Of a stretch of DNA of 64,000 nucleotides, positions 8,635 through 33,073 are shown one piece after another. Both the position numbers and the translations under genes were made by a program. The stretch covers positions 29,572-93,571 of the forward strand of contig JBBHKE010001737.1 of NCBI GenBank assembly GCA_037447655.1. Reading direction: 5' to 3'. Positions within the stretch are counted from its first letter, which is position 1; each line of letters opens with the position of its first letter. The notes under the pieces are model-generated. The model was not told where the DNA came from. It was given only the letters and a program-made list of their open reading frames with translations, and did no database searches. The DNA comes from Zygnema cylindricum. Taxonomy: Eukaryota > Streptophyta > Zygnematophyceae > Zygnematales > Zygnemataceae.

Positions 8635-10082
8635 TATACACTAGAGCTTACTACTAACTGTACGGGGGCATACTAGCCGTACGTCATCAATCAACTACCT
8701 CTATTAATGTGAGTATACTCGAATACTTCGTGATATGTCAAAACTAATAGATCTACACTATTAATTAATACACATAGGACAAAACATTGTTGTAAATATT
8801 TACAAACACCACGGATTTCGTCAAAAGAATCTGGACCGTCCAAAACAAATATCATGTGATGGACGCAATTTCGCGTCTCTCACCAAAATGACCAAACTGA
8901 CGCCGCCGCCGTCCGTATCTCTTATTCAACATAATTGATGTCGTGTCACGTGGTCACATAATCCACTTGACGAACTGACGTCACCTCATCCAAATTAGTC
9001 AGTACTGGCGGCGTCCTTTTCACTCAATGTCGCTCACTCCACTATCAGTTCGAATTCCTTTCGTCATATTATGATTCGTACCTGCGGCGTACCTTTCCAA
9101 AACATTCCAGATCGGATCGCTTCGCGATCCGTCGTACATTTGACTCATATATTCCGTATCTTTCTTTACGTTTGTTTGCGCCATTCAAATAATTCCGTAC
9201 ATCCCAAAACAATTAGTACCATTACTCCCCCAATTCGCAAATCCATTCGAACCTCCACAGTAAATGAAGATAGCATACGCAATAAAAATCGCGTCATTGT
9301 ATTCACGAAACATTGTGTACGCACGAAACGTCGCTTATGCTCGAAACTAAGGGTAAGGTTCCATTAGGGAAAAAATGTCGTTGTCTACTGAAAGCCGTAC
9401 TCTTTCGTACAGTGCCGTACCAGAAAAAATATAATGTCAGAAAAACAAGCCTACTGAATGAGGGATTTAATTCTCCATGTTTATGGGCGTAAACGTGGAA
9501 TCGTCGGATGCATAATCAGATACGCCATGGTCTGACAATTTCATTTCGCAACAAGTGACCCGGAGTAGGTTAATTCTTTGCGCCTGAACGAATAGCATCG
9601 TGCCTTGTGGAAAAGTGCACAAATATCCATGACGACCGCGCGACCAGGGGGGTACACGTCGTATATGACATGTGCCTTCCACCAAGGAGGATGCGAGGCC
9701 ATCGAAAGACGCAAGAAAATCTTTGACGGATGATATTGTTTCACGCGTTTGTCGCCATCCACTAACCATTTTGACATTTTTGTGCGCTTAAACAAATCTT
9801 AAGTTTCAACAGCCCGTACAGATTTTATTCAATACGTCGTACGAGTCACTTTTTACCTTCACTGGTACGAATATGTGGTCACAATTTGCTGTCAGAGATT
9901 CTTTAAAGATTTCCAGAATCGTATTCATCTATTACGTGGACTAATCAAGTTTCGCCATGCAAATAAGATGTCGGTTACTGACCCGACACAATGGAACGAT
10001 GGCTTAGTAAACGATTTTTTGACGTTTACTGAGACCACGTAATGGAACAACGCTCTAACTTTTCAAAAACAACACATTTCAT
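8635..10082. other. no recognisable gene
   Basis: The first 100 bases continue the inverted copia-A-type LTR. The remainder is non-coding, rich in GTAC-containing words, and has no ORF or repeat I can assign. Confidence 0.5.
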
Positions 10083-10174
10083 ATACAGATATATATACAT
10101 ATATATACATATATATATACATATATATATACATATATATATATACACATATATATATACACACATATATATAT

Positions 10175-10253
<79 letters not shown>
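10083..10253. repeat. AT/ATAC microsatellite
   Basis: Simple repeat of ATATATAC units passing into about 70 bases of pure AT. Open frames here (IYIYIY proteins) are artefacts. Confidence 0.95.
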
Positions 10254-10261
10254 TAATTTGG

Positions 10262-10511
10262 CTAAGGGCACGGTTCCGTGTACGTCGAGGCAATCCGTGT
10301 ACGTCGAGGCAATCCGTGTACGCCGAGTTATAAATTTCAAAAATTTGGCTAACTTCAAGGATCCGTGAACGCCGAGTCAATCCGTGTACGTCGAGTTAGA
10401 AATTTTTAAAATTTGGTTAACTACTAGGATCCGTGAACGCTGAGTCAATCCGTGTACGCCGAGTTAGAAATTTCGAAAATTTGACTAACTACCAGGATCC
10501 GATCCGTGTGC
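10262..10511 (+). repeat. 68-bp tandem array interrupted by Copia-A
   Basis: The unit starts repeat at 10325, 10393 and 10461, exactly 68 bp apart. Each unit contains GAGTTAGAAATTT, GGATCCGTGAACGC and ATCCGTGTACGCCG. A 22-bp sub-repeat (CCGTGTACGTCGAGGCAAT core) stands before the first full unit. Copia-A is inserted within a unit: TGTAC at 33074 and CGCCG after it continue the broken unit on the far side. Confidence 0.9.
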
Positions 10512-14564: not shown

Positions 14565-15538
14565 TGTTGAAATTAAAGCTTTGATCTCAGCAGATAATAG
14601 TGTGAGGAGGATTTTAGGACTTAGAATATTTTTGTCTAAGTCAAATTGTAATACTTACCTTTATTAGTGTTGCTTGGTAGAGTATATTGCACGTCTACAT
14701 AGAAACGCAGCTCGATATCTAAGGCTTGTGCATATTTCGAAGAAGCGTGACAACAACATACATGCCATCGACATCGAGCGGAATCACGATCGGACGGATG
14801 AGATTATGTAGCGTTTAGGAACAAATTACACGGAATAATGAGTACCGCTGGTAAGGAATGAGTCTGACGGACGAGAATCCTGCGGGGACCACAGGTGACT
14901 AAGCATAACTGTACGCGCCCACGTGGACCGTAGTTATGAAAAACAATCGGGTGGACTGTCGCGACTGACGATGCCTAAGCAAAACCAACATTAGTTGTAC
15001 GGCGTCAAAACTGAAAATATTTGAAACACATTGTTTTGTTTTTAGCACATTAAAATTTGGTGTTTCGTCACTTAGATTATGGCTAGCGGAAATTAGGGTT
15101 TTGAAAGGACCGTGAGTACAATGACGTACAATTCCGGTACCTTGTCATTTTGTAGTGCAGTACGATAGTGCGAGGTGTTAGTTGTTGATTAGTCAGTTAG
15201 ATCAGACATACTCTCAGTGCATAAAAATTAGGACTTAGAAAAAAAAATGTATCATCCAGTTTTTAGAATATGGAAACTTAGAGGCATTTTTTGGGAAACC
15301 TCCAGCTTTGATATCTTATGGTTTACTAGACAGTTTATGCTGCAATTTTGGGAATTGACACTGTGCATGGTGATCTAATTGTATGCTGATTTTGGTTGTA
15401 TTTGGAGTTGTGAGTCTGATTCTGTAGTGTTCAAAAAACTGCTATTTGGTAGGATTCTTGTTAGCTTTTGTTGAAAAACATGTCTACTCCTACAACTACT
15501 GCTGCAGCTCCACCTGTACCGATAGTAATAGAACAACA
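14565..15538 (+). repeat. Copia-B 5' LTR
   Basis: Starts TGTTGAAATTAAAGC and ends GAACAACA. The last 59 bases carry the gag ATG (15480) and 19 codons plus two bases. The primer-binding site at 15539-15550 is a decayed form of the half-tRNA site (AGTTATAGGC...). Confidence 0.9.
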
Positions 15539-16475
15539 AGTTATAGGCATGTCTTCAAGAATTCCTTTCTTTAATGGGCACAAATATGGTTATTGGGCGG
15601 ATATGGTTGAGTCGTACTTTGAAACTGCAGGTTTGATGGAGATTCTGGATGGATCACTTGACGAGTCTGATCCAACTTGGGCGAAAAAGAATTCATAAGC
15701 TCAAAATACTTTAAACGATGTCTCTTGGAGAACCTAGTTATGTCACGAATCAAAATGAAGATGGCGATTGATATTTGGAAATCTCTTAAGACGCCTTATG
15801 AGAAGGCGAACGTTCAAGAAGAATTTGTGTTGGCAAAAAAGATCTGGGCCTACAAATACTCGGGGGGAACGATGGCCGAGTATACCGATAACTTTTGAGC
15901 TCTTATTGATTTTCATGCTTGTGCTAGTGGTACCGTTCCTGAATTTCAACAAGTTGCTTTGGTCATTAGAGGTATTCGTAGCAGTATGAAAGATGCATCT
16001 GTTGCAGTTTAAAAACATGATAAAGCTAGGTGGACAATTCAGTTAGCTATAAATATTATTTTGGAAGAAGAGTCTACGTCAAAGATTCTTAATGGAGAAA
16101 AGCAAATCGAGGCTTTTATCACAGATTTTGAGAGGAGAGGTCAGTTTAACCAGTCAAAAAATAAGTTTAATCAACCTAGGAATCAACTTAACCAAAATCA
16201 GGGTCAGTTTAAACAGTTTAATCAAGGACAAATTAGACAGTCCTTGACCTCCTGTTTTTATTGTTCGGAACATGGTCATGGCTATAGATACTGTCATGCA
16301 CTGAAAAAGGCAAATGAAACAGGTGTACATAGGCCAGGTTCGCAACATAGTCCATTTAATCAAGGCTTCTCTGAAAAGCAGGTTTTAACCAATTCTATGT
16401 TTGCTTCATCTGCTACTGAGGAGGATCAGTCGTTGAGCTTCAACAAACAGGATGAATTGGAACTATTTGCTATGG
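15480..16475 (+). pseudogene. Copia-B gag (cut by Gypsy-G)
   Basis: Begins MSTPTTTAAAPPVP inside the LTR, then VIEQQVIG across the LTR/PBS junction, then the FNGHKYGYWADMVESYFE gag domain. The reading is broken by a stop near 15698 and by frame changes; it continues through WAYKYSGGTMAEYTDNF and a Gln/Asn-rich stretch to a CCHC knuckle CFYCSEHGHGYRYC (about 16253-16294). It stops at LFAM, where the gypsy element entered the gag-protease boundary. Confidence 0.8.
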
Positions 16476-16802
16476 TGTCGAGCGTGCCAGAAAAACAGAA
16501 GGGAAGGGCCCGCTGCCCGGAATGGCCGGTCTCGACGTCCTGCAAAGAACCCACCAATGCGAATGCTTCCCAGAATAATGATAATGCCTATTGCTGACCC
16601 CATCCCTCCTAACAGGAATGCATGCACAGTTAGGAGAGGCACAAGGATAGGGAATAGGGATGAGTGCATGGGAAGGCGAAAAGATCTCCCCTCCCCCTTA
16701 CTTTTCCCATTAAGCCCGGGAAAGGGGTTGCGTTCTCGGTAATCGGGTCGGTGCCCCAATTTCCCCTCCTCTTAGTCAACCGTGACTAAGAAAAAGAAAT
16801 AG
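16476..16802 (-). other. Gypsy-G 3' non-coding end
   Basis: A purine-rich tract on the minus strand (AAGAGGAGGGGAAA, about 16764-16777) could be the polypurine tract, leaving about 285 bp to the insertion boundary as a short 3' LTR. No matching copy is seen at the 5' end. Confidence 0.45.
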
Positions 16803-16985
16803 TTACCCGCCCAATTCACAGTTCCCGCAGAACCATGGACTAGGGGATGGAGGGCGTGGTTCCCATGAGGAGGGGAGACAAGCTGGATGCCAGCACTGCC
16901 CGCACTGATGGCAGACCAAGATGTCTTGCTGCTGGGAGGACAAGTTGCAGGACGATGAACAGGAAAGAGGATCGGCAAAGTAAGT
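16803..16985 (-). pseudogene. PHD-finger-like C4HC3 module at the pol C-terminus of Gypsy-G
   Basis: In the same frame as the integrase C-terminus, immediately after a TGA (16986-16988), 60 codons encode a C4HC3 pattern: C-x3-C, x10, C-x2-C (CHQC), x4, H-x2-C (HPAC), x13 ending in Trp, then CGNC, and the reading stops at TAA 16803-16805. The spacing and the Trp before the last Cys pair fit a PHD finger, a reader of histone H3 tails. In chromoviruses a chromodomain occupies this position, so a targeting role is a reasonable inference. Not a RING by spacing and aromatic position, though this cannot be excluded. Confidence 0.6.
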
Positions 16986-18419
16986 TCAGTGGAAAGTGGG
17001 GTCGTCTTCTAATCCTCGGAGGTGACAAGGGGCCATATTGATTTGATTCTCTTTAATTCGTCGCCCATCTTTCCCTTCCAAAGTCAGAACTCCCTTATTT
17101 GAAACTTCCACCACTTTCAAGATCACCAGCCCGACAGAAATGTCAAGCGTGTCCTTTTTCTGTTGCATGCGATAAACAAAGTCTCCCGACATAAATCGTC
17201 ACTGTTGGGGCACGTAATCTCCGCTCCGGCGCTGGGAATACCACAATTGATCCCGGTGTTGTGCCGCCTGTAAATTCCGTATGGCGAGAGGCATCTCCCG
17301 GTGGAAAATTTTGGCACGGTCGGCGATCAGTTTTTCGACAGTTCCCTTGTCATCCATTGCCGGGAGGATCACCGCTTGGGCAGAGGCAGCCCCAGGCAGA
17401 ATGGGATGCCGTCCGAATAAAATGAAGTAAGGGCTGTAGGAGTGAAAGAAGCCTGTCTGCTGAACCGGTATCCCATGGCAATCAAGGCACCATTTTCTCC
17501 CACTCTCCCAAGTCCTCTTCAACTGCATATTTCCGTAGTGACCGCTTCACTGTCTGTACGCACCTTTCGGCCAAACCTTCGGCTTGGGGGTGGTCGCGGC
17601 TGGTAAGTTAATGGTCGATGAGGCATTTCTCCTAAAGATTGGTAAATTCTACGGCGAATTCCGATCCCTGGTCGGTCAGAACCTCTGCGGGCGCCGCAAA
17701 CTGTGACAGGACTCTCAGCAGAAAGGCGTCGGAAATGAACTTGGACTCCTTTCGGGGCAGGACCACAAGCTCTATCCATTTTGAGAAATGTTCAATCATG
17801 ACCAGAACGAAACGATTCCCACGTCTGCTGGTCAAAAGAGCTCCCAAAAGATCCAAAGACCACTTATAAAACATTCCCCTGATGGGAAGAGAATGGAGCT
17901 CAGTCCCGCCATTTTTGTCAAAAGATGCCTTAACTCGATCGCAGGAAGAGCAAGTCTGTACAATTCGCTTGACTTGGTCCCGCAACGCGTGCCACCAGTA
18001 AGAGCCTGTAACCAAGGAAGTGGTTCGCTTCTTTTCGAAGTGTCCACATTGTTTATGGAGATTGGTAATCAAAGTTTCTCGATCTGAGGGAGGGGGAACC
18101 ACTTTCCTAGTACTGTCTGTCCATTTCCGGAGGAGCACTCCTCGGTCCCACTCATACGCCGCCATCCGGGTCTGAACTCGGGATAATGGAATTCCAGCCA
18201 AGTGGGGAAGAGGGGATCCCTGCTGAATAGATTGGAGAGCTTCGGAGTCATTCCAAATGTCTTTCCGTCCGGCTCCCATGGGGGCCTGCCCCTTTACATC
18301 TGCTGCAAAAGTTGACAATTCCCCCCCAGATGGAAGAAGCCAAATGAAGGCGGAGGATGCTCGAATGAGTCCCAAACTGATTTCCGGATCCTCGTCGTGC
18401 CGAGCCCCGGTGGAATCCA
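16986..18419 (-). pseudogene. Gypsy-G integrase with C-terminal module
   Basis: HHCC zinc domain LHKQCGHFEKKRT with CSSCDRVK (about 18070-17940), then the DDE core: SLDLLGALL, LTDQGSEFAVEF (about 17680-17645) and, after a frame change near 17635, HPQAEGLAERCVQTVKRSL carrying the Glu. The C-terminal part reads FFHSYSPYFILFGRHPI and then MSGDFVYRMQQKKDTLDIS, VEVSNKGVLTLEGKDGRRI: an SH3/GPY-F-like module. Stops occur at 17199-17201 and 16986-16988. It inserts the cDNA into the genome. Confidence 0.82.
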
Positions 18420-20089
18420 GGGTCGAAGGATCGGGGTTTCGGCTTAGTCCGTCGGCATTCCCATGAATTTCCCCTGCCCGGTGGACAATGCTGAAATCAT
18501 ATTCCTGCATGATAAGAACCCATCTGGCGAGTTTGCTGGTCAACTTACTATTTTCCATGATCCACTTCAAGGGTTGGTGATCGGTGATTAGTGTGAAATG
18601 GACCCCGTACAAATAAAGCCTGAAATGCTGGATGGCCCAAACCGCGGCAAGAAGCTCCCCATGATAATTGCTATAATTTCCCTCAGCTCGGTTATTGCTC
18701 CAGCTGGCGTAAGCCACCACATACTCGGCACGTGCGTCGTCAACTTGAGCCAAAACAGCTCCCAATCCAAACCTGCTCCAATCAGTGTAAAGGAGGAAAG
18801 GCCTCTGGTGATCAGGCATCCGGAGCACTAGGTGCTGCTTCAGGGCATCCTTCAAGAATTGGAAAGCGATCTGCTGTTCCTCGGCCCACTGCCATTCTTC
18901 ATCTTTCCGTAATAGCTTATTGAGGGGCTGGGCGTGACTAGTGAACTCGGGAATAAACCTGCGATAGTAGTTAGCCAGGCCGAGAAAGGTGCACAAGGCA
19001 GAAATATCCTACGGGGGAGGAAAAGCGTCGAGGGCTGCAACCTTCACCATATGGGGACCCAATGTCCCAGGAGTTACCTCATGTCCGAGGTAAATGATTT
19101 TCAGCACTCCAAAAATACCCTTGCCTGGGTGACATTTCAAGCACGTTGCTTGAAGAGCCCGGAGAACGATCTGGATATGCTCCAGGTGTTCTTCAAAGGT
19201 CTTGGAAAATATTATCACATCGTCGATGTAGCACGTGGCACAATCGATTCCTCGGAGCACTTCGTCCATGGCCCGTTAGAACTTTGCTGGTGCATTCTTC
19301 AGTCCGAAAGGCATGTAGATCCACTCATAAAGTCTGGATCCGACCCAGAATGCCGTTCTCTCCCGGTGGTTTGGTTCCATGGCAATCTGGTGGAAACCAT
19401 TCTTCATGTCCAGTGTGGAGAAAATAGTGGCCCCAGCAAGAGAGTCGAATATCTCTTCCGGAGTGGGCATTGGTTACCGGTCAAGAATGGTGGCCGTGTT
19501 CAACATGCGGTAGTCCCCACACATTCGGAAGTCCACGGTTTTCCCGGATGAATCCTTCTTAGGAGGGAGAACTGTGGGGGAAGCAAACCCATGGAGTCCG
19601 GTACTTTCCTGAACCAACCCTGCGTCCACCAATGTTTGAACCTTTGCAGTAATAAACTCTTTCTCTTTGAAGCTGAGAGGATATTGTTTCTGCCAAACCG
19701 TTGCGGTTTCTCGATCAAATCTAACCGAAAGGGGGTTCCTTTGAAGATTCCGACATCTGTTTCGGACCATGAGAAAACCTGAGTGTTTCTAGCCAAGAGT
19801 TCTGTTAGCTGTTCTTTCTGCTGAGGGTCCAGCTGCTCCCCCAGAGTCCAGTCCATTTTTCTCGGCTCAACCGCAGCCCAAGCTTCCGGTGGTCTTCCCC
19901 AGAGGTTGATGTCGAATTCTAGCCCAACTTGTGGATCTGCCTCTATTCCTCCGGATAATACTTTACTGCTGACAACTTCCGCTAAGGTGTCTCCTTCTCA
20001 GCTTCTGTCCCCCCCCGCTGAAGGAACTCTCGGGTGTAGAATTTTTCTCTTTTCTCTCCCCCCCTCAAGCTGCAAAGTTGCTTGCATGG
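18420..20089 (-). pseudogene. Gypsy-G reverse transcriptase and RNase H
   Basis: After a linker (LEFDINLWGRPPEAWAAVEP) comes a frame change near 19690, then RT: SFKEKEFITAKVQTLVDAG, PTVLPPKKDSSGKTVDFRM, STLDMKNGFHQIAM (motif A), MPFGLKNAPAKF (motif B) and CYIDDVIIFSKT (catalytic YIDD, about 19236-19201). RNase H follows with YTDWSRFGLGAVLAQ and ITDHQPLKWIMENSKL. The RT/RNase H frame has three stops (after ILDR, after APAKF and in PP*DIS), two of which replace Gln codons. It copies the element RNA into DNA. Confidence 0.85.
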
Positions 20090-21265
20090 ACAGTAACTGT
20101 GGAGCTTGAAGGTAATTTCTGCGTGAATCTGGAGCGTGGAGACTAGAATAGGCAAGAACATGCTTTACAACCCATGTAATGGCATTTAAATCCATGCTTT
20201 GCCCTATGAGGCTGCACCGCTGTAGGTCTGAAATACCTGGTGCTGCCGTGGTTTCCGGATAAATCCCATTGCCTGTTCTCTTTCAGATATTGTTGGTGCT
20301 GTCCAAAGTCTTTCCTTGCTGTCAAAAATCATTCCAGCTGCCCCTTTCCGGTAGGCGTGACTGTGAGGAAAAGATACCAACGTGGGGAGTGCTTTACGTA
20401 GGAATCTGGGGATATTGCATTGGAAGAAAGGTGTACGATCCGGTTTGGTTACAGGTGTCGCCATTCTCCCTTTTCCAAGTATCTGCTGCACTGAAATCTG
20501 GGAGTCGGGGGTTTGTTTCTCCAACAGTTGCCGGAGGACTAGAAGAGGGATCATATTGGTCCAATATGCCTGGAGTCTGTGCGCTCGAGATCCCATTTGA
20601 GCAGCGTCAAAAACCAAGGGAGCTCCCAGAATACGGGTTACCTGATTCCAACTTTCTGCAACCTGCTTTCGTTTATCATCCCCCGGGCGGACATTCTCCA
20701 GAATGTACCCCACTGGTGTGTCTTGGAGCTGCTGAATCCACGATATCAATGTAATCATCTGATAGAAGGTTCCACTTTGGTGGTCCTGATGCCCTTTTCC
20801 TTGTCCTGCTAGGGAGTATCCCTGACAAGGCCATCCCGCCACAACCAGATCTACTCTTCCCAGACTAGCTAAATGATCTGCCATTATATTATCCACATTC
20901 TGGCGAAGACTCCGGTGAGCTTTAAAAATGGAAGACACTGGAAGCTATTGAGGATATAAGCGGTGCAGTTGATGTAGGCGGTGTTCGCTGACAGCTCGCG
21001 CTTCCGGTGAAATTTCCACTGCTGTGTATGACTCCACTCGATACCCTGCCTTTAAAACTGCCTCCAAATCAGAACTGATTCCTGAAAATAAAGATAAAAT
21101 CCGAAGTCCGGAGTCTGGGACTGTCAATGACACCACTTGTCGATTGAAGTCCTCGCTCCCAGTCTTGGTTTTGAAATCATCTGACTGGATCGTCGAATCT
21201 GTTTTCGGTGATAGTAAGGCCGAGAATGTTTGATCCACTCCCCGCCGGAGTTTCGCCACCTGCAA
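20090..21265 (-). pseudogene. cytosine-5 DNA methyltransferase domain embedded in Gypsy-G
   Basis: Lies between protease and RT. Motif I is LRILSLFSGISSDLEAVLKAG, followed by AVEIS (motif II). A single in-frame TAG at 20945-20947 interrupts the frame, then DLVVAGWPCQGYSLAGQG is motif IV with the catalytic Cys codon at 20825-20827. YILENV (codons near 20698) is motif VI, QMGSRAHRLQAYWTN motif VIII, a roughly 80-residue target-recognition-like segment follows, SEREQAMGF is motif IX, and LIGQSMDLNAITWV is motif X, reached by a frame change near 20215. The order and spacing are those of DNMT/Dcm-type enzymes that methylate C5 of cytosine. About 350 residues, all motifs present, two lesions. The domain has no separate promoter and is read as part of pol. 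Confidence 0.9.
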
Positions 21266-21313
21266 TAATCTGTCTGCGTATTCTCTCTCCCACCGCTTGG
21301 AAATCGGGAATTG

Positions 21314-23185
21314 CTAGATGTCTTCGGCAATATCTGTGGAACTGTCTAACAGCTCCGCCGGAGAGGTGGTACAATACACGGGGTAACAGCCAGACACCGG
21401 AACATTGGTCTTTCCCCGGTTCCATAAATCTAAAGGAACCACAACTTTGGTTCCTTCGGGATTTCCTGGGTCCCGAACTGTACATTGCTCCTTCCAAACA
21501 CTCAAACTCATATTCATGCGGGTCTAAGTTGCCATTCCCAACAAAATTTCAAACTGATTCCCTTCTACCACTAAGAAAGGAAGTCCAATTTTCACCTTCT
21601 GTCCCGCATCATCTGAGAATTCAATGTCCATGGCTTTGATGATCCCATGGACTGGCTGATTGCCGCTGCTGACTGTGCTCAAGCAGATGTTACTCGGGCA
21701 GATGTGGGGTCTGAGTTATTCTAGCATTTTCTGCAATGCAGAAGTAGTTATGAAGTTGGGAAGGGCTCTGGTATCCACCACAGCGTCCTGATACCCTCCG
21801 TACCCGTTCAGTTTGAAATTCCCGGTCTGGTTTAGAATTAGTGCCACGGACAAAGTTTTGTAGTCCCTATCCGCCATAGGGGTCTTAGGATCTGAAGAGA
21901 AGGATACCGCCGTGGGTGGTGTCACCTTGTCGACTTTGTCTTTTCCAGAATGGATCTCTTCTCCCAGTGCCTGAATGAGGATCTCTTCGGGCAGATTATG
22001 GGAGGAAGCAAGGGTCTTGACATGGGTCAAGGCATAAGGCATCAAATGCGGGACTAGCATAACAGCAGGCTTGGAGGAATGGAACGGAGCTTTTGGGGAG
22101 GATGTTGGCGAATTTTGTTCCTGATCCGGTTCTATCTTTTCGTTGCCATCAGTTTCGGAACCGAAATCGGGTACGGGTGGAGTTTTTGGTGCATCTTCGT
22201 CCGGGCGTTCGGCCATAAACCGTTCAAACCAATCCTGTGTACTTTGGTTGTCCTCTTCCAGTGATTTTGTCTCCTGCTGCAGTTTCTCTTTCTTGTAAAA
22301 TTCGAAACCGGGAGGCAGTCTAGGTTGAGGAGGAAGAGGAGGGGGTTGAGTGGGCTTGATCCCAAGGCCTATGTCACTGTTCAAAATGATTGCCTTGGGC
22401 GTGAAAGACAAAGGCCCGGTGGCCTTCCGGTTGTGGTCCTTTTGGCCCGTTTTCCGGCTGTCTCTCCTTTGATCCAAGGTTGAGGAGCAGAGTTGTCTAA
22501 TACCATCTCCCACTCCAACATTCCATGCTCCGTGCAGGACATTGTTTGCATGGTGGGCATTTGGGGGTTCCAAATCCCAGCCCATCAAATCATCGTCATT
22601 AACACCCGATGCGCTTTGAAGCTCAAGCTCCGCTAGCTTTTGTAGTAACTCTTGCTTTTGTCTTTGAAGTCGTTGCGCTGCCGTAAGAGGAGCAGGCCGG
22701 TAAGTCGACCCCAAACGAAGTGCAGCCAATTCTGCAGCCATGGCAGCCATCTGGTGACTCTGCTGTTGGATTATTATCTCAGGTGTAAGGCTTGCCGGAG
22801 CAGTCGTTAATGGTTTTGGCGTCACTGGTGGAGGCAGCACTGGGCGCTCCCAAGGATAAAGGAGTTGTAGGGGAAGAGGGTTAACGGCAATCTCTCCTCC
22901 TCCCGTGAACAAAGCGAATTGCATCATTTCCTTAGGTATCCCGTTCTTCCGGAAACATTGTCCTTCCTTGTGCCCCATAAAACCACAGGCTTTGCATTTG
23001 TGACCCTCAGTGGTATACTTGCTTCGAATCTCGTTGGAGATCTGAGCATCGTCAAACTTTGGTAGTTTGATTTGCCGCAGTTGGGACTGGGACATTTTTG
23101 AAGTTTCGCTTCGGGGAATGGGTCGGTAATTGTTCTTTGTGACCGGTGTTCTCCCCCCCCCCCCCTGCTTTGAGCCTTTCTTCAT
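21314..23185 (-). pseudogene. Gypsy-G second zinc knuckle, linker and aspartic protease
   Basis: The frame after the G-run reads RQIKLPKFDDAQISNEIRSK, then a second CCHC knuckle CKACGFMGHKEGQC (about 22995-22954). A long Gln/Pro-rich linker with a coiled coil (AAELAALRL, then LQRQKQELLQKLAELELQ) leads to the retropepsin region GYQDAVVDTRALPNFITT. The active-site triplet reads DTR instead of DTG, and a stop follows at 21716. The protease frame continues past it as AMDIEFSDDAGQKVKIGLPF, then VVEGNQFEILLGMAT, then a TAG near 21523. It would process the polyprotein; this copy is dead. Confidence 0.7.
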
Positions 23186-24263
23186 GCTGCTTCTGGCTCC
23201 TTTCTGAACGCTCTACCTCCCATTTTTTCAACTTGAGGGCTAGCTCCGGTTTGAGTTTCCTGCTGCAACGTTTCCATCCATGTCCAGGTTGTTGACAATT
23301 TAGGCAATTGTACAGAATCACCCGATCGTCGGCCCCCATTGCATGTTCTGGCCCGCTGTCCACAACTTGCTTCCCTTTAAGCTTCCGCAAAGCTTGGAGT
23401 TCCTCTTGTTCTTCCCCCCTTAAGGAAGTTTCCCCGGCGAATCCTGCAAAATTTGCTCTTGCCTTGCCGGTCACGGCTTTTTCTCTCGCCTCACTGTGAA
23501 CGAAATGGTCGTATAACTTCATGGCCACCAGGGATATGTCCTTGGCCGAGGGATTAATGTCCTGGATGGCCTGTCCTGCGATCCAGTTATCCAAGGCAGT
23601 CTGCCCTGTCGGTCTGAAGGAATTACGGACAGCAATGAAATACTTGGTCGCCATTGCGGGAAGGTCAATGGTAGATAGTTTAGTATTCTGACAAAGACTA
23701 GAGAGGCGGTTAAAGAGTGTCTGAGGCGTCTCATTCTTCAAACACCGGAATTCCGTGAATTCCTTGATGGCTGATTCGTTCCTCTCGGTGTAGAGGAGTC
23801 TCCAGATGTTAAGAAGAGTGGTGGAAGGGGTAGGATTCCCACTATACGAGTTGAAACCCGAGCTGTCTGAATTGCTTGCAGCTGGTTAACATAGGCCCTC
23901 CCTTGGGCCTGCAACTTCATATCATCGGTGATGGTAGTTGTTACAGGGGTCACCGCTGCGGCAGCCAAATCTGCCTCCGCTCGTAAAACTTCTGCATCCA
24001 GGGCCGGATCTGAGATTTTGATGCTTGGAGCCATCAAGAGAGGTTGACGCTCCTTATAATCCGCCAACGCCCCTCCAGAGAGGTAGTTGACCATCATGGG
24101 AAAGAGAGTTGTTTCGAAGTCGTCAGGAATAGCTCCTCCCCTGTACTTATTAATTTCAAATTGGGTGAAGGATTTCCACAACAATTCGAAATCGGAGAAA
24201 GCTATCCCAGAACTATCTCCTGTAAAGATTCGGATGTCCCCCATTTCCTTTTCCTCCTCTGCT
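23052..24263 (-). pseudogene. Gypsy-G capsid and first zinc knuckle
   Basis: MGDIRIFTGDSSGIAFSDFE opens the capsid domain, with RGGAIPDDFETTLFPMMV and helical repeats. One frame break lies near 23740, then TLFNRLSSLCQNTKLS leads into a CCHC knuckle CLNCQQPGHGWKRC (about 23309-23268). The frame ends in a 13-base poly(C)/poly(G) run at 23153-23165, after which the downstream frame continues. In the second copy the corresponding site has no homopolymer and stays in frame. Structural protein of the virus-like particle. Confidence 0.75.
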
Positions 24264-24400
24264 GAATGTGTGAACTAAGACAAGGAAGGTCCGGTGGGAC
24301 TGACAAACTGGGCTGGCGAAGTGGCTCCTAGGTCCTCTTCCTCGGGAATGGATCCGACTCCTCCTCCAGTAGGAGGTGTTGCCCTGTGAGGTGTGGAATC

Positions 24401-26526
24401 TCATCCAGCAGAGGAAGTACCCGTGCCTAGAAATGTGGTAGGAGGAAGGGTATTCCTTGATGATTCTCTTGGTGCAGAGGATATCCTTGGGCCTGTCTGT
24501 CCGACTGAAGTAGAAGGGCCCCACTCCCCTATATCAACCTCTCTATATCCACTGGAGTATCGCTCGTCCCGGAGAATTGTTTCCGTGGACGGGATGTGAA
24601 GCCGAGGTCGGTTTGCAGGTGGATATTGGGGTTGGCATGGAGAAGAAGATGGAGATGAAGGCCGGTTCTGGGGAGAAGGTGTCTGTCTCCTAAACGCGGT
24701 TGGTTTCCGATGCCTTCTTCTGGAGGTTTCAGGGGGAGGAGTTCCAGAACTAGAGGATGGGGAACGCCGGTGAGGAGGGGAGTATACGTCGTACTTATAG
24801 GGTAAATTCAGCGGACCTGGGGACCCACGGTCGTCTCCAGTAAGAGAAACAGAAGGAGATGGAGAGGAGATGGGATTGTCCCGGGGTTCTGCTGCCGGAG
24901 CCTGGGAGTGGGAAGTAGGAGGATGAGGAGGGAAAGGAGGAGGATCAGGGGACAATCTGGGTGGAGGAGAAAGAGGTGTAGACGGTCACAAGCGGATGTG
25001 AATTCTTTCGTCTGGTCGTAACTCCACTAAGGCCTCAACAGCTTCAGAAACCTCCACCGAAACAAAAGTAGGCTCTTCCCGTGGAGCCGCTTCGAGTTCA
25101 GACAGTAAATCTGCACTCAAACCCCCAATATTAGGTCTTGTGTCTGCCCCCTCTTCCCGCTGAAGAGGAGGTTCCTGACTAATCTCTGAAGGAGGAGCCT
25201 GGGTGGAGCTCCGGGCGGGGTTTCCACTATTGGTGTTGGAGGGATTAGCTCACTGAGGATCCCACTGGACCTCCGCCTAGCTTCCCGGATGAGATTCAAT
25301 TCCTGCTCCCACAACTTTCTCCGTTCTTCCTCCAATGCTTCCCAATCTATTGAAACGGGTCCAGTCCCCGCCGTAGCCGAGCCCTAAGATTTTAAAATTT
25401 CCACTAGTTCCTTAGCCCTTTCCACTACTCCGGTCAGATCAGCTATCCCTGCTCCTAGAATTTCTGGATCTGTAGGCCTGGCTCGAAACAATCCCTCGGA
25501 CAACTCTTCTGGTTCAGTTTCCGGAACCTTTGGGTCAGTGGGTTCGGGTCGCCAGAACCCTCCATCAGGGCGGACCCGGGGTGCCGGAGGGGTAGATCTC
25601 TCGGTGGAGACTGGCACTGGCGTTGGGGAAGGTTCTTCCTTGGGAATAGGTGCAAATCTACCCTTGCTATCCCTGTGGTCATATTTCTTCCCCCTCCCCT
25701 GCTCTGGAACCCCGCTATCGCTGCCACCTGCTCTCCTACGAGACCTCGAAGCTGGGCGCCCCCGGGACGGTCGGCTTGCTCCAGTGTCTTGGGAAGAAGA
25801 TGGAGGAGGGCGAGAAGGAGGAGCCCTCTTGGGCCGTTCCCGCAAGGACTGGGAGGAACCACTCTCTGAAGAGCTACTTAGAATCTCCACTACCCCTCCG
25901 ACTGGTTTAACCACCCGAGGTCGATTCGACCGAGACACTCTTTGCACCAACTCCTACTTAACCTTCAGTTCATGAAGATCATGAAGAGCAAGGAGTTCCT
26001 TTCGACCAGGGCGGCTGGGATCCGTCAAAACCGCAGGGTCAATGTGAATTTCGGCCCTGGGAATCTTTGATCTGGTGTGAAGCCCGACCTCCGGAAGGGG
26101 ACCCAAAAGGGGCTCCCGCTGAGCTTGCCTCTTTGGCCTGGCCCGGGGTAACACTCGGTTTCTTTCTTGAGCCTGTGCTCTAGACTCCTTTCTTTCCTCG
26201 GCAAAGGTTCTGGAGGCCTCCGCCAAGGAGGGAAAATGTTCAGGAGTGAGGCTAGGAGGAGATGGGGGCGAAGTTTGTGGTTCGGGTGGTTTTGGAGGAG
26301 TTTCAACCCTAACAGGCTCAGGCATCATCCCCTGGAGAAACCGCTCTATGTTGGTAGGCGAGGTGAAGGGGACGGATTCTTCGGGAACATGTGACTCTTC
26401 TTCTGATACCACCGCTTCTCGATTCGCCCGTTCTTCCGGCCTGGCACCGGAGAGATTCTTATCTTGAGCTTCACCTCCTCCCATGATGACGAAGGTCTCG
26501 AAAGAGGGATGAACGACAGAAAACAA
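24401..26526 (-). pseudogene. Gypsy-G N-terminal proline/serine-rich region
   Basis: About 700 codons of low-complexity, Pro/Ser/Arg-rich sequence ahead of the capsid, in frames 26526-25954, 25950-25384, about 25335-25117 and 24955-24401. The first two are the same frame separated by a single TAG where the second gypsy copy keeps a Lys codon. Recognisable anchors shared with that copy are TNIERFLQGMMP, DHRDSKGRFAP and an EALEEERRKLWEQELNLIREA coiled coil. Family unknown; probably a disordered gag extension or linker. Confidence 0.6.
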
Positions 26527-27788
26527 TACTCGTTTCCGCCAAGAGAGCTTCTAAAGTCAAAAAGCTCCTATCCCCTCTAATCGGAAGGAGACAGGGAGGC
26601 TTTTCACTACCGTGCTTATTCCACAGGAAGTCTATAGCATTTGTTCCCTCAAAACCCACTGTTTCGATGCCAGGAAATTGTAGTTTTACCCCGGGAAGTC
26701 CCCGCCAAAGCAAAAGAGACTAAAAGTGAAGACACAAATGCACTACCACGTGGACATATAAAAATAAATAGGAATGGCTATTTCAGATTTAACAATATCA
26801 CCTTGACCACAGAATTAAAATTTAAGATGGAAGATATAAAAGATGGCGAAGCAAGCTTAACATACCCCGGCAATTTACGATGACAATGGGAGAAAGGCGA
26901 AATCTCTCCTGATGGTAGTGTAAATAGGTATGGTACTCCTTCAACCCTCGGTGTCCTCAGCTTAGAACTGACTAGACTCTTCTCAGTTTCAAGCAGCCAA
27001 AAATCCAAAAATCACCCAAAGGGACGGTAGTGCCAACCACCAGCCCGAACTATGATTCCCAAAATGGACAAATCCAAAACAGAGATGGCAATAGAGTCAA
27101 ACAACACAAAGATTCTCCGAAAGAAGGTTTGTTGGAATTTCTGAGGGTTTTCACAGGAGACTGTACTGAAAAGCAACTTGTCTCCTTCGGCCCCAAGCGC
27201 CTTATACATCAAAGTTTGTCCAAAATTAGGTCCAAAAGTCAAACCTACGCTATTAGCCAATGAGCAACCAGCAACGGCAATCAAACTGACATAAGACAAA
27301 ATAATGTGTACTACTCTTGGGGCAAAAAGTTGGACCTCTGACCACGGCTATATCCGCGGCCGGAAGTTATTATTTCTTCCACAGTTTTTAAGACAAAGTA
27401 CTAAAAAGACACGGAAGTGCCAAGCTTTGACTTAATGTAATTAATTAACCACTGGTCAGCTGAATCTGAACTGAATTGCTACAGACAGCTAACAACAAAA
27501 TCTAGATTACAGTCCGGAAGTCTACGTGGCAATCCACAATGTACCCTCCACTAGGGCTGGTGGAAGCTAGTACTATGTGACGGAACTGCGATCTTTCAGA
27601 CGGTAGAACTTTGTCGTCCAGCCTCCGTTAAGCACGAAACAAAGTGCGTCTTGTTCAGTAGAGGAAATACTTCAATCCTTCCGGCAGGTTGTGCTGGCTT
27701 CTCCGAAATCTGAGAATAATACGGGTTGGAAGGGTACGGAAATCCTCGGTAATATAGAAGTGTGCCTGAAAAGCACTCGAGCTTGACA
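26527..27788 (-). other. Gypsy-G 5' non-coding end
   Basis: About 1.2 kb between the insertion boundary and the first gag-like frame. It should contain the 5' LTR and leader, but shows no similarity by eye to the 3' end (16476-16802). No gene recognised. Confidence 0.5.
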
Positions 27789-30700
27789 ATGGCGGCAACA
27801 ATGGAGGGATCAAAGGACGCGGATGGATCATGGACACCGGAGTATTGACCCGCATGTGCTGGAACAAGTCGATCTTCACTAATCTCAAGGCTACAACTAC
27901 AAGGAATATTTACTATGCATGTGGCATGAGTGTTCAAACTCATGCTTAGGGTGATTTCTCTTTGCTGGTAGATGTAGGAGGGAAGTCAGTTGAAAGAACA
28001 CTTCACAATGTTTTGTATGTCCCTGACTTAAAAAAAGCCTTTTTTCTACATCACTAGTTAAAAGCAAAGGATTTGAGGTCACCCTTAAAAGGGGTAAGCA
28101 AGTTGTTAGAAAACCAGAAAGGTAGTTGTCACAAGAACTATAGATGAAAGCAAAACGTACAGCATGGATATGGCTAATACGAAGGAAAATGATGTTCTCT
28201 TTTCCAATGTTTTGTTTGAAAATGAGTTATGGTATAAAAGACTAGGACATGTTAACTATGATAGTTTGAGAAAAATGGTAAATGCTGGCAAAGTAGAAGG
28301 TGTTTCTCTCACAATCCAGCCAGTTAAGACTTGTGATGAATGCTCATTAGGTAAAATTCATACGTTACCGTTTCCTCAAGAGTTAGAACATCGTTCGGAA
28401 AAAGTACTCTAGCTCATACATTCTGATGTTTTAGGCCCGGCTCAGGTGCCTTCTACTGGAGTTCGCTTCATGGTCACATTTACTGACGATTTTTCTTGAT
28501 TTACAAAAGTTTATTTTATGAAAGAGAAGAGTGAAGTGTTCGAACACTTCAAACACTACAAAGCTTGGACGGAGAAATTACATGGAGTCCGATTTTGGAA
28601 TTGAGATCGGACAACGGAGGGGAGTATATGTCCAATGAATTTAAAAAGTTTCTTTTAGATGAGGCTATTAATCTGCAGCTGATGGTTCCATATACGCCTC
28701 AACAGAATGGTGTTTCAGAAAGGTTAAATAGAACAATTACAGAGAGTGCTACATCGATGCTTGCAGACAAAAATGTAGATTTGAAATTCTGGGCAGAGGC
28801 CCTTAACTGTATAAAGAATAGGATTGCATCAAGATCAGTTAGCACTACACCATTTGAGCTATGGACAGGTAGGAAACCTCAAGTCAGTCATTTTAAAGTT
28901 TTTGGCAGTAAGTGCTTCATTCTTAACACATCACAAAATACTTGGAAAATGGAACCGAAAGGCCTACTGGGTATTCTAATGGGATATGATGATAACTCTA
29001 AGGGGTATAGGGTGTATGTATTTGATAAAAAAAAAGTGGTTGTGTCAAGGAATATCATTATAAAATATAAAGGAGAATCGGCTGATTATTTCACCATGAC
29101 AGATAAACCGGCAGAAGAAAAATTGCAGGATTATGTCATCTTTGAAAAAAAAAGACCATTTACTTTCAGGTTACTCAGCAACAACCTATGGAGACTGTGT
29201 CCACGGACCCTCAAGTCCATCTTACGGCTCCGTCGGAGCGAGCTGCACCACTCTAGGAGGACACACATCCCGCTCCACGACAAACAAAGAACGCCAAGCA
29301 TCCATCGATCTCAGCATCAAAATTTTCGGGGGGAAGGAGATCTAGCAACCGTTTGTAATATGGATTGTACTTTGCATTCTCTACAACCTCAGAGAAACCT
29401 CTAAACATTCGGGAGGCCTTCTCATCACCGGAAAGAACTCATTGGATTGAGGCATCAAATGACGAGATGAAATCTATTATGGAAGCTCAAACGTGGGAGT
29501 TGGTGGAGTTTCCTTCGAACAGAAAAGCCATCGGGAGTAAGTGGGTGTTCAAGGTAAAATTAAACCCGGATGGCACAATAGAAAGGTATAAGGCCAGACT
29601 TGTGGCCAAGGGTTATAATCAGAATGAGAGAATTGATTTTGAGGAGACTTTCACTCCGATTGTAAGATTTCCAAATGTTAGAATTATGCCAAGTCTAGCT
29701 GCAATTGAGAATATGGAAGTCCATCAGATGGACGTCAAAACATCCTTTTTGCATTGAGAGTAAAAATAACCTATATCTACGCAGCAACCAAAAATGTATG
29801 AAGAAAAAAGAAAGGAGAAATTTGTGTGCAAACTATTAAAATCCCTTTATGGGCTAAAACATGCCCCTAGGATGTGGAACCTAAAGCTAGATGAGTTTTT
29901 GATTGGACTAGGTTTTAAAAGGATTAGTAGAGATCACTCTGTGTATGTATTGCAAGGGGAGGATGGAGTAATTTATATTGCCGTATATGTAGATGATCTA
30001 CTATTTATTAACAAGTCTATAAGTGAAATAAACCGCATTAAAGAAGCCTTAAAATCAAGATTTGACATGAAAGACCTCGGAGAGGCCAAGTATATTTTAG
30101 GAATATAAGTAGAGAGAGATAGGAACAATAAAATAATCATTTTGACTCAAAATGAGGCTATAGGAAATATGCTTGAAAAATTCGAAATGAAGGAAGTAAA
30201 AGGGTGTGTAACTCCTATGGAGTTTAGGCAGAAATTCGAGGGAGATGACTCAGATTCTCGTATCCTAGTCAGTGAGAGTCTAGAGTTAGGGGAGGAGGAG
30301 TTTATGGCCTCTAAACCATACATGCATGTAGTCAGCAGGCTCATCTATTTTATGAATCGCACGAGGCCGGATATCGCAGCTGTTGTTGGTGTTCTAAATA
30401 GAAGCTTGCAGAATCCGAAGAAATCAGACTAGGAAGCCGCAAAGAGGGTTATGAGATACCTGGCAGGGACTCGGAACCTCAAACTTGTTCTCGGAGGTGA
30501 GAAGTGAAACTGCAGACTTGGAGCGATGCTAGCTATGTCGACATGCCTAGCAAAAAGTGAACGACTGGTTTTGTGTTGCAGATTGGAAAATGGAACCTGT
30601 TGCTGGAGCAGCAAGCTTCAGAAGGTCACGGCACAATCAATAATGGAGTCAGAGTATACGGCTGCAAGCTCGGCACTTAAAGAGCTCTTATGGGTGAAGG

Positions 30701-30960
30701 CACTTCTACAAGAACTTGGGTACATGCAGACTGGACCTGAAGTCATTTGGTGCGATAACCAGGCAGCCATTGCCATTGCCTCCAATCCCAGCCATCACTT
30801 TAAAAGTAAGCATATGAAAATCAGGCAACACTTTGTCCGAGAAAAGATGCTTGCTAGAGTCATCAAATTGTGTTATTTGGCTGATAAAAAATGGTCGCAG
30901 ACATGCTAACTAAGGCTCTCCCTGCACCTAAGTTATAGTTTTGCAGAGATGTTATTGGAC
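27789..30960 (+). pseudogene. Copia-B pol (protease region, integrase, RT, RNase H)
   Basis: Resumes after the gypsy TSD with a frameshifted protease region (NIYYACGMSVQTHA), then GAG-pre-integrase LGHVNYDSLRKMVNAGKVEG, and integrase catalytic triad IHSDVLGP, LRSDNGGEY, NGVSERLNR. A stop in KVL*LIH replaces Gln, one in DFS*FTK replaces Arg. RT follows: WVFKVKLNPDGTIERYKARL, MEVHQMDVKTSFLH, LKSLYGLKHAPRMW, YIAVYVDDLLF; a TAA in ILGI*VERD, then a TAG for Trp at KSD*EAAKR. RNase H runs from 30526 (QSIMESEYTAASSALKE, VIWCDNQAAIAIAS). The polypurine tract lies just before the 3' LTR at 30995. Confidence 0.9.
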
Positions 30961-30994
30961 TAAGTGACTAGCTGAGTCTAAAGCTTTAGGGTAG

Positions 30995-31946
30995 TGTTGA
31001 AATTAAAGCTTTCATCTCAGCAGACAATTGTGTGAGGAGGATTTTAGGACTTAGAATATTTTTGTCTAAGTCAAATTGTAATACTTACCTTTATTAGTGT
31101 TACAATAGCAGAGTATGTTGTACCTCTACTGAAACACGCGTCGGTATCTAAGGCTTGTGTAGATATTTCGGAAGAGCGCCGATAACAACATACATGCATT
31201 GATTATCGAGCGAGCGAAATCACATGATCGGACGGCCAGAATTAAAAGCGAGCATTTGGGAACAATTACCTGTACAGAATAACGAGTTTTGTTGGTAATG
31301 AATCGAGTCGATGGACGAGATTCTTCCGGGGGTGGACCGAACTTCTAAACAACAATCGGGTGGACTGTCGCGATTGACGATGACTAAGCGAAACCAACAT
31401 TAGTTGTACAGCGTCAAAACTGAAAATATTTGAAACACATTGTTTTGTTTTTAGGGCATTAAAATATAGTGTTTCGTCACTAAAATTACGGCTAGCGGAA
31501 ATTAGGGTTTTGAAAGTACCGTGAGTACAATGATGTACAATTCCGGTACCTTGTCATTTTGTAGTGCAGTACGATAGCGCCATGTGTTATTTGTTGATTA
31601 GTTAGTTAGATCAAACATACTCTCAGTGGATAAAGTTTAGGACTAAGAAAAAAAATGTATCAACCAGTTTTGAGAATATGGAAACTTAGAGGCAATTTTT
31701 GGTAAACTTCCAGCTTTGATATCTTATGGTTTACAAAACCGCTTATGCTACAATTTTGGGAATTAACAGTGTGCATGGTGATCCATTTGTATGCTGATTT
31801 TAGTTGTATTTCGAGTTCTGAGTCTGTTTCTGTAGTGTTTAGAAAACTGCTGTTTGGTAGGATTCTTGTTTGCTTCTGTTGAAAAACATGTCTCTTTCTA
31901 CAACTACTACTGCAGCTCCACCTGTACCGGTAGTCATAAAACAACA
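30995..31946 (+). repeat. Copia-B 3' LTR
   Basis: Colinear with 14565-15538. It still ends with the ATG-containing MS-Ser/Thr-rich gag leader and ACAACA, followed by the TSD copy AAAGA. Confidence 0.92.
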
Positions 31947-33073
31947 AAAGAATGTAATGTACTTCATAGGACACGCAGCGCAGATCAAATGTATACGTAT
32001 GACAATGATTCACTTTTGAATCCGAAATAATGGCACACAACAAATTGTACGATACAACAATGAACAACGAATACGAATCGAGTCAACGGACGCGATTCAA
32101 AGTGGGACCACATTAAGTCAATGTTGCTGGTCGTGTGTCCTCCATCGCGAAGATATATATTACATCTTATGACGATCTGTATATTCTAGAAGACTCATGC
32201 AAGGACGCTAATGTAATCGGTCGGTCCCGAGAACATTGACGATGAAAAAATTCTGACGGGACCACAGTTCACTAAGCAAGCCGCGTCGCTTTGCGCGACC
32301 GACTTGCTACTAGGAGATTTGAGTTTTGCACGTACAATTATTTGGACGGATTCACCAATGTTGACTAAACAAATGACACAATGTATGTACGGTACCTATT
32401 TGTAAATATATGAAGCAACATAAATTTGTACGTCGTGAATTATTTTTCAGTGTTACAATATTAAAATATGATAGAAGTTATAATTAGGGTTTGGACGTAC
32501 TTCCGGTACAGTAGATGTACCGTTGACGTACAATGTCGTTATTCAAGTACAGTACTTAGTTAACGTGTAGTTAGTTGATTAGTGTAGATTACTCATTAGA
32601 TTACAGTGTATAAAATATAACACTTAGTTTATTTTTGATCATCAATGTTGATTTTATCAAAGTAATGGCAGACTGTTTTTTTGCAACTTTGACCTGATGG
32701 TGTGATTACCTTGATTGATGTTTTTATATTGAACTTTATGGTTCCGTTTGAAGATCTAGAAACTATATGTTTATGCAGTTTTATTGTTTTTTTTCAATTC
32801 AGTAGAATTTTGTGAGAAGTCTATTTGGTTAGTTTGATAAGTTGTTAGTTGTTTTTGGGAAAATCTGGAGCTCATATCTTTTAGATTCCATTGTGTATGA
32901 GGCTATAATTTTAAGAGGTCATAGTGTCTAGTATATATGGCATACTCGTGTAGTTTGAACTGCTTTTTTTTATTGTGGAATAATCTGTGCTGTCTGAAAC
33001 ATAACTGATTTTTGGGGTAGTTTGTGGGTGTCTTTCGTGAATAATCCCGGGCTGAAATAGGCTATAGACAACA
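31947..33073 (+). repeat. Copia-A 3' LTR, right part
   Basis: Continues the LTR broken at 14559 and ends GACAACA at 33073. It carries the uninterrupted TA (32393-32394) that shows where the MITE entered the 5' copy. No gene is present between 31000 and 33073. Confidence 0.9.

Follow-up and report, generated by a model that had tools for sequence, protein, structure and literature searches.

The stretch of DNA analysed here (the window) comprises 64,000 nucleotides of the zygnematophycean alga Zygnema cylindricum (assembly GCA_037447655.1, contig JBBHKE010001737.1, positions 29,572 to 93,571). On its minus strand lies a decayed copy of a large Ty3/gypsy-type retrotransposon family that acquired a DNMT3-type cytosine methyltransferase (MTase) and retained it within Pol. 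The copy is nested inside a plus-strand copia-like element. Along it are found, in this order, an N-terminal open reading frame (ORF), gag, protease, MTase, reverse transcriptase (RT), RNase H, integrase, and a PHD finger, and the G+C content of its coding part is about 51%. The parts of the element are as follows, with the two terminal repeats named A and B:

16476..27788, minus strand: whole element, with ends TGTC...GACA; repeats A and B matched to those of copy C746, and a 4-bp duplication (ATGG) on both sides
26612..27788, minus strand: terminal repeat A at the 5' end, 91.8% match to A of C746
21317..26550, minus strand: N-terminal ORF, then gag (zinc-knuckle-like motifs) and protease, spread over several broken frames; other copies have this order too
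21314..21316, minus strand: conserved in-frame TAG at the boundary of protease and MTase, context TAG CAA TTC; TAG in all 31 copies
about 21109 to about 20168, minus strand: DNMT3-type cytosine methyltransferase with motifs I, IV, VI, VIII, IX, and X, broken; limits computed
20945..20947, minus strand: nonsense codon within the MTase, a lesion of the window copy; the frame is open there in other copies
19009..19997, minus strand: reverse transcriptase (YIDD), in broken frames; YIDD identified by eye, homology to protein P0015 (RVT_1)
17632..19008, minus strand: RNase H (PF17917, E 1.4e-33), integrase zinc-binding domain (PF17921, 8.4e-14), and start of the integrase core (PF00665, 1e-7)
16986..17546, minus strand: remainder of the integrase; same place in other copies
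16803..16985, minus strand: PHD finger at the integrase end (PF00628, E 3e-6, 27.6 bits, cut-off 24)
16476..16754, minus strand: terminal repeat B (92.5% match to B of C746), with a polypurine tract in front of it

The pol domains found by Pfam are of gypsy type, and the integrase is of the rve type. Integrase core and zinc-binding domain were found in place of a tyrosine recombinase, for which no separate search was made. The protease piece of the window copy had no Pfam match and was assigned by eye and from its relatives; by profile this domain is weak elsewhere too, with PF13650 under the cut-off in two other copies. The RT pieces of the window likewise had no Pfam match, and the assignment was based on the YIDD motif, seen by eye, and homology to P0015. 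The PHD finger that the original prediction had placed in the same element was recovered by profile, while that of one other copy scored 17.3 bits, below the PF00628 cut-off. Chromoviruses are Ty3/gypsy elements with a chromatin-reading domain at the integrase end. The family described here, also Ty3/gypsy, carries a PHD finger where chromoviruses have a chromodomain, and no chromodomain match was obtained at E≤0.1 at the end of ORF2 of one copy.

C5-MTase motifs between protease and RT, in the orientation of the element, had been predicted from the sequence alone, and homology searches bear this out. The piece at 20944-20204(-) matched PF00145 (E 1.6e-9), with DNMT3A as its best solved-structure match (E 4.1e-5). 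Motif I (LRILSLFSGI) lies in the piece at 21313-20945(-) and motif X (LIGQSMDLNAI) in that at 20282-19998(-); neither piece had a Pfam match when searched singly. The same domain of another copy, compared with solved structures, matched DNMT3A (2.1e-14), DNMT3B (8.9e-10), HhaI (3.7e-5), DRM2 (7.9e-5), and DNMT2 (0.43), and no DNMT1 or chromomethylase was named among the best 60 of its 61 matches. The motifs run in the order I, IV (PCQ), VI (ENV), VIII, IX, and X, and the DRM-type rearrangement is absent. The PC dipeptide, the arginines of motif VIII, and further motif residues do not vary among 12 aligned sequences, and one of these arginines is replaced by Gln in the window copy. The two breaks originally reported within this domain, one TAG and one frame change (at about 20261-20267), are both real; they are not the only damage, given this replacement of an arginine.

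A search of the genome (352.8 Mb, 2,689 contigs) with the MTase piece gave 1630 first-look candidates and at least 150 matches, the 150 scored having E values ≤5e-95 and identities of 63-100%. The MTase of a second subfamily, used as query, gave 1874 first-look candidates, of which 121 were scored. A further match, 65% identical, is situated on the contig of the window but outside it (C1304:128984-129718). Some genomic copies have ORF2 open over about 1,520 codons, and MTase and RT share one frame in copies with open frames. The order protease, MTase, RT, and RNase H was present in 10 of 10 longer copies; integrase and PHD finger follow in nine, and C2497 ends after RNase H. At the upstream end, C665 lacked matches to the N-terminal ORF and most of gag, and C715 lacked the first N-terminal match.

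The 31 copies compared (the window copy and 30 others) were picked through their MTase, and its presence in them is thus no independent evidence. Because the longer copies had also been found in this way, the genome was searched with the RNase H-integrase region alone, and the best 94 of 4394 places were scored. At 40 of these an MTase was listed upstream on the same strand, 39 times at a distance of 1.86-2.70 kb and once at 5.55 kb. With four more places matched by eye (C44, C519, C2630, and C2458) and three recognised by reading the sequence (C961, C2111, and C895), MTase sequence lies upstream at no fewer than 47 of the 94. Close relatives free of the MTase were sought among the 54 places where none was listed; all five that were read (C961, C2111, C519, C2630, and C895) hold the MTase in part or whole. 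An apparent open frame of 5743 residues in C961 proved to be a run of N.

Selection was assessed as the median ratio of nonsynonymous to synonymous substitution rates (dN/dS) over pairs with dS>0.3, which are not independent of each other; copies were kept only where 93% of a region aligned in a single frame. The ratio was 0.144 for the MTase core (29 sequences, 210 pairs), 0.115 for the motif I region (31 sequences, 186 pairs), 0.196 for the motif X region (25 sequences, 138 pairs), and 0.308 for the linker (24 sequences, 158 pairs). For RT it was 0.060 (26 sequences, 123 pairs), for RNase H 0.138 (16 sequences, 30 pairs), and for the integrase 0.131 (13 sequences, 30 pairs). Pairs with dS up to 0.3 gave higher values (MTase core 0.357, RT 0.225, integrase 0.569), as expected for decaying copies. 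MTase, RT, RNase H, and integrase are therefore under purifying selection. A separate insertion or a dead passenger would be suggested by the stop and the frame change of the window copy. This explanation is refuted, with a probability that we regard as negligible, by the same position of the MTase in other copies, its common frame with RT, its purifying selection, and the lack of a visible target duplication of its own, the ATGG duplication flanking the whole element instead. Overall, the evidence supports an MTase built into the element.

The in-frame TAG between protease and MTase (21314-21316), which the original prediction did not report, is distinct from the TAG that it did report, the lesion inside the MTase at 20945-20947. 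It is present in all 31 copies and is not a lesion. The sequence TAGCAATTC was found in 30 of the 31, and L037 has TAGTAATTC; CAATTC directly follows the stop in 30 of 31. At nine of the ten codon positions from -1 to +8, the commonest codon is shared by 90-100% of copies (the exception being CCN at +3, with 55%), while in the codons flanking this block it occurs in 29-87%. Five copies from a subfamily with 67-71% identity to the window copy in the MTase core keep this context as well. In type I viruses such as tobamovirus, UAG followed by CAA UYA constitutes a leaky stop context, with which UAG CAA UUC agrees at five of six bases (PMC2754532). Reassignment of UAG as a sense codon in the host was ruled out, since an Lhcb gene ends with TAG at the expected place. 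An RNA hairpin after the stop is not claimed: column shuffles gave z of about -1.5 for the first 60 bases and -4.7 to -6.0 for longer windows. The MTase is probably made by UAG readthrough, as the first domain of Pol, to judge by these sequence features. Alternatively, the TAG may be the true end of Gag-Pro, with ORF2 made by restart or from a separate RNA. ORF2 of the second subfamily has its first Met ahead of motif I, at residue 19, and restart would be possible there. Other copies have no Met before motif I (residue 144, past motif I, in C665, C161, and C746), and constraint acts on nearly every codon of the 27 bases that follow the TAG, so that we consider this alternative improbable.

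In-frame stops between upstream and polymerase products are known from readthrough retroelements and tobamoviruses (PMC2754532; Tca2, PMC2194720), and RIRE2 of rice has been named as a gypsy readthrough candidate; in the parts of that source consulted, none of these is said to gate an MTase (PMC2754532).

Of the terminal repeats, A measures about 1180 bases and B about 210-280. Copies C746, C1485, and C2344 have the structure A-coding-B-GC-A-B; of this, the B-GC-A-B end was seen in C715, and the window copy, C161, C544, and C1920 consist of A-coding-B only. The spacer between B and A was GC in six of six junctions. A purine tract lies 5' of B, and the sequence directly after A is complementary to a stretch near A606-635 over 15-25 bases with at most two mismatches (C746, C1485, C2344, and the window copy, in which the complementarity measures 15 nt with up to two mismatches). 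The sequence after A is thus a possible self-priming site; self-primed elements such as Tf1 have comparable complementarity. Target duplications were exact in the window copy, C746, and C2344, contained one mismatch in C1485 and C2497, and were not seen in C544, C1920, and C1374. Divergence between 11 repeat pairs of seven copies ranged from 0.3 to 6.6%, with a median of 2.9%.

If self-priming is assumed, the long terminal repeat (LTR) would be B-A and the inserted form would be rotated by B. With the polypurine tract upstream of B and the putative priming site downstream of A, reverse transcription should yield BA-coding-BA. The inserted A-coding-B-A-B would then be a rotated product, as if the integrase had opened a two-LTR circle at the palindromic GACA-GC-TGTC. 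DIRS elements with such split repeats also carry adenine or cytosine MTases. That the MTase acts on a circular DNA intermediate is a tentative and rather doubtful idea; if it were true, an MTase of their own would be a recurrent need of circle-integrating retroelements, for protecting, marking, or licensing the circle, and a leaky UAG would set the dose of MTase per particle.

The outer copia-like element extends over 14565-31947 (+), with repeats at 14565-15539 and 30995-31947, and is split by the MTase-bearing element; its repeats differ by 13%; in MTase-bearing copies elsewhere, the median between the paired repeats is 2.9%. A second partial gag region at 50865-52872 (+) shares stretches of 70-76% identity with the element, on the opposite strand, and no adjoining MTase match was noted there.

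Retrotransposon-borne DNMTs were already known in principle, as the original prediction had noted (PMC5890265). The closest description is that of KnitGypsy-Dnmt3 in Klebsormidium nitens, a gypsy element of a streptophyte host with an unrearranged Dnmt3 in its Pol polyprotein ORF, DIRS-like repeats (here in C746, C1485, and C2344), and purifying selection (PMC5890265). This likeness is one to the published description of that element. Klebsormidium nitens is said to hold fewer copies than Symbiodinium, whose SymbioDIRS-Dnmt3 and SymbioLINE-Dnmt are likewise retrotransposon-borne MTases; the former resembles the present family in a Dnmt3 within Pol, split repeats, and hundreds of copies, and de novo methylation of CG in yeast was shown for two SymbioDIRS-Dnmt3 domains (PMC5890265). 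Integration of DIRS elements relies on a tyrosine recombinase and LINEs lack LTRs, whereas the present family has an rve integrase. PHD finger, protease, and readthrough are not mentioned in the text of PMC5890265, figures apart. Some retrotransposon DNMTs were called LTR Copia and DIRS (PMC12344493), and methylase-encoding transposons were said not to be present in land plants such as tracheophytes (PMC6338049).

Three protein searches yielded the relatives P0001-P0056. The MTase precedes RT in P0015 and P0042 (both by Pfam), in P0034 (RVT_1 listed, MTase by profile), and in P0035 (RT by eye). A protease precedes the MTase in P0038 and P0041 (by Pfam, weak in P0041), in P0019 and five proteins of Marchantia polymorpha (by letter pattern), and in P0018 (tail of a protease, by eye). 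In P0051 the domains follow each other as RNase H, MTase, integrase, and PHD finger, and P0046, P0052, and P0056 show MTase, integrase, and PHD finger in that order. The Marchantia proteins (P0036, P0040, P0045, P0048, and P0050) have a homologous MTase, with 40-45% identity over 60-65% of the query, downstream of a protease-like motif as in the window element, and no RT was seen in them. In P0036 and P0048 protease and MTase occupy one ORF that ends soon after the MTase (by eye), placing the ORF boundary on the other side of the MTase. A viral origin was rejected, as the identity of 24 IMG/VR loci was 28-43% and limited to short stretches.

Support in a quick tree of 54 rows was evaluated with the Shimodaira-Hasegawa-like approximate likelihood ratio test (SH-aLRT). 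Rows with fewer than 240 profile positions (P0056, P0034, P0035, and others), P0003, P0005, and copy L027 were excluded, and the labels for upstream protease and downstream RT were simple letter patterns. Six copies of the Zygnema genome formed one clade (SH-aLRT 100), joined with P0015 and P0020 (82). P0051, P0046, and P0052 fell in a clade of eight rows (98) beside one of 16 rows that included the Marchantia proteins (98), with a joint value of 99. Tree and domain orders together indicate that the protease-MTase-RT order is widespread, and the integrase-side placement looks like a single later change. Relatives in other genomes sharing the protease-MTase-RT order, its suggested novelty is uncertain. 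The conserved, putatively leaky stop, the Marchantia relatives, and the second MTase placement were not seen in the openly licensed PMC literature searched. In this tree, from which other DNMT families were absent, a DNMT3A fragment was placed within the retroelement rows on a very long branch (3.39).

As to the role of the enzyme, the reading that we favour by a slight margin over its negation, from gene order and sequence conservation, is a Gag-Pro-MTase-Pol protein that would be made by readthrough and packaged, methylating the complementary DNA (cDNA) of the element itself, with the PHD finger guiding the integrase. Some ribosomes would pass the UAG, and the MTase would enter the particle together with RT and integrase at a low and fixed dose. 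It would then methylate the double-stranded cDNA before or during integration, and new copies would arrive pre-methylated, by which the cDNA may be shielded from attack or the fresh insertion kept quiet. The PHD finger may direct the integrase to marked chromatin, a function that chromodomains have in chromoviruses.

Several observations weigh against this reading, in addition to the early Met of the second subfamily. RT is more constrained than the MTase, which is on a par with RNase H and integrase. The Marchantia relatives appear, by eye, to have no stop between protease and MTase, so the stop is not general. In yeast, the gypsy DNMT3 of K. nitens gave no detectable methylation, a result that its authors call inconclusive (PMC5890265). 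That inactivity would suit a domain that methylates RNA, or merely binds nucleic acid during reverse transcription, rather than a DNA MTase; the invariant motif residues and the nearest solved relatives, which are DNMT3 enzymes with DNMT2 far behind, make this an unlikely role.

Traces of methylation were also considered. Between repeat pairs, transitions per site amounted to 27/497 for CG, 35/571 for CHG, and 37/1986 for CHH; the corresponding values of the outer copia pair were 0.243, 0.260, and 0.155. In the aligned regions, 18 of 62 nonsense codons are TAG at positions where CAG is the most frequent codon. Since CG and CHG decay is thus also found in the outer element, it points to the host's own methylation, which again weighs against cDNA methylation by the element. 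Nor was a CpG depletion specific to the element found when compared with the window: its observed/expected CpG ratio of 0.62-0.68 is like that of much of the window, and a self-methylation scar was rejected. The traces fit plant-like CG and CHG methylation by the host, with no evidence of self-methylation. The excess of CG and CHG transitions, as a sign of methylated, silent copies, could also be taken for self-restraint, proposed in the Discussion of PMC5890265, in which the MTase would silence new copies at once, harm the host less, and let the element persist, cDNA protection playing no part. The outer copia pair shows this trend too, so that host silencing would suffice for it, and none of the present results separates self-restraint from methylation of the element's own cDNA; we hold self-restraint to be a fairly unlikely explanation. 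Action in trans on the genome of the host or other elements, considered for Symbiodinium by its authors (PMC5890265), would be compatible with the many copies, some with a long open ORF2. The conserved stop at the head of Pol suggests a low dose and packaging with RT, and the methylome of K. nitens is land-plant-like (PMC5890265), both of which leave trans action with a low probability.

Some further features of the window and the genome were recorded. An AT-rich palindromic simple repeat at 10072-10501 adjoins an array of tandem units of about 68 bp. Two Lhcb genes had moss-type LHCII and land-plant Lhcb3 as their best matches, apart from a multi-domain LHCI chain that topped both lists. Arrays of chlorophyll a/b-binding-type genes in alternating orientation occur on C519, C2590, C1116, C610, and C1077. 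NAC gave 11 exon matches on six contigs, and the four exon matches of dynein AAA_6 lie at a single place. Radial spoke queries had no match in the genome, and control queries likewise had none. The Lhcb, NAC, radial spoke, and dynein results suggest a streptophyte alga that lacks flagella, probably one of the Zygnematophyceae.

Transposons normally suffer from DNA methylation; the successful family described here has a methylating enzyme of its own, kept under selection. The conserved stop offers a concrete idea of how the MTase may reach the particle and the cDNA. The relatives in Marchantia polymorpha and in metagenomes, with two placements of the MTase, suggest a wide green-lineage family rather than the oddity of a single alga, and the role of such an MTase could be studied in Marchantia, a tractable laboratory plant.
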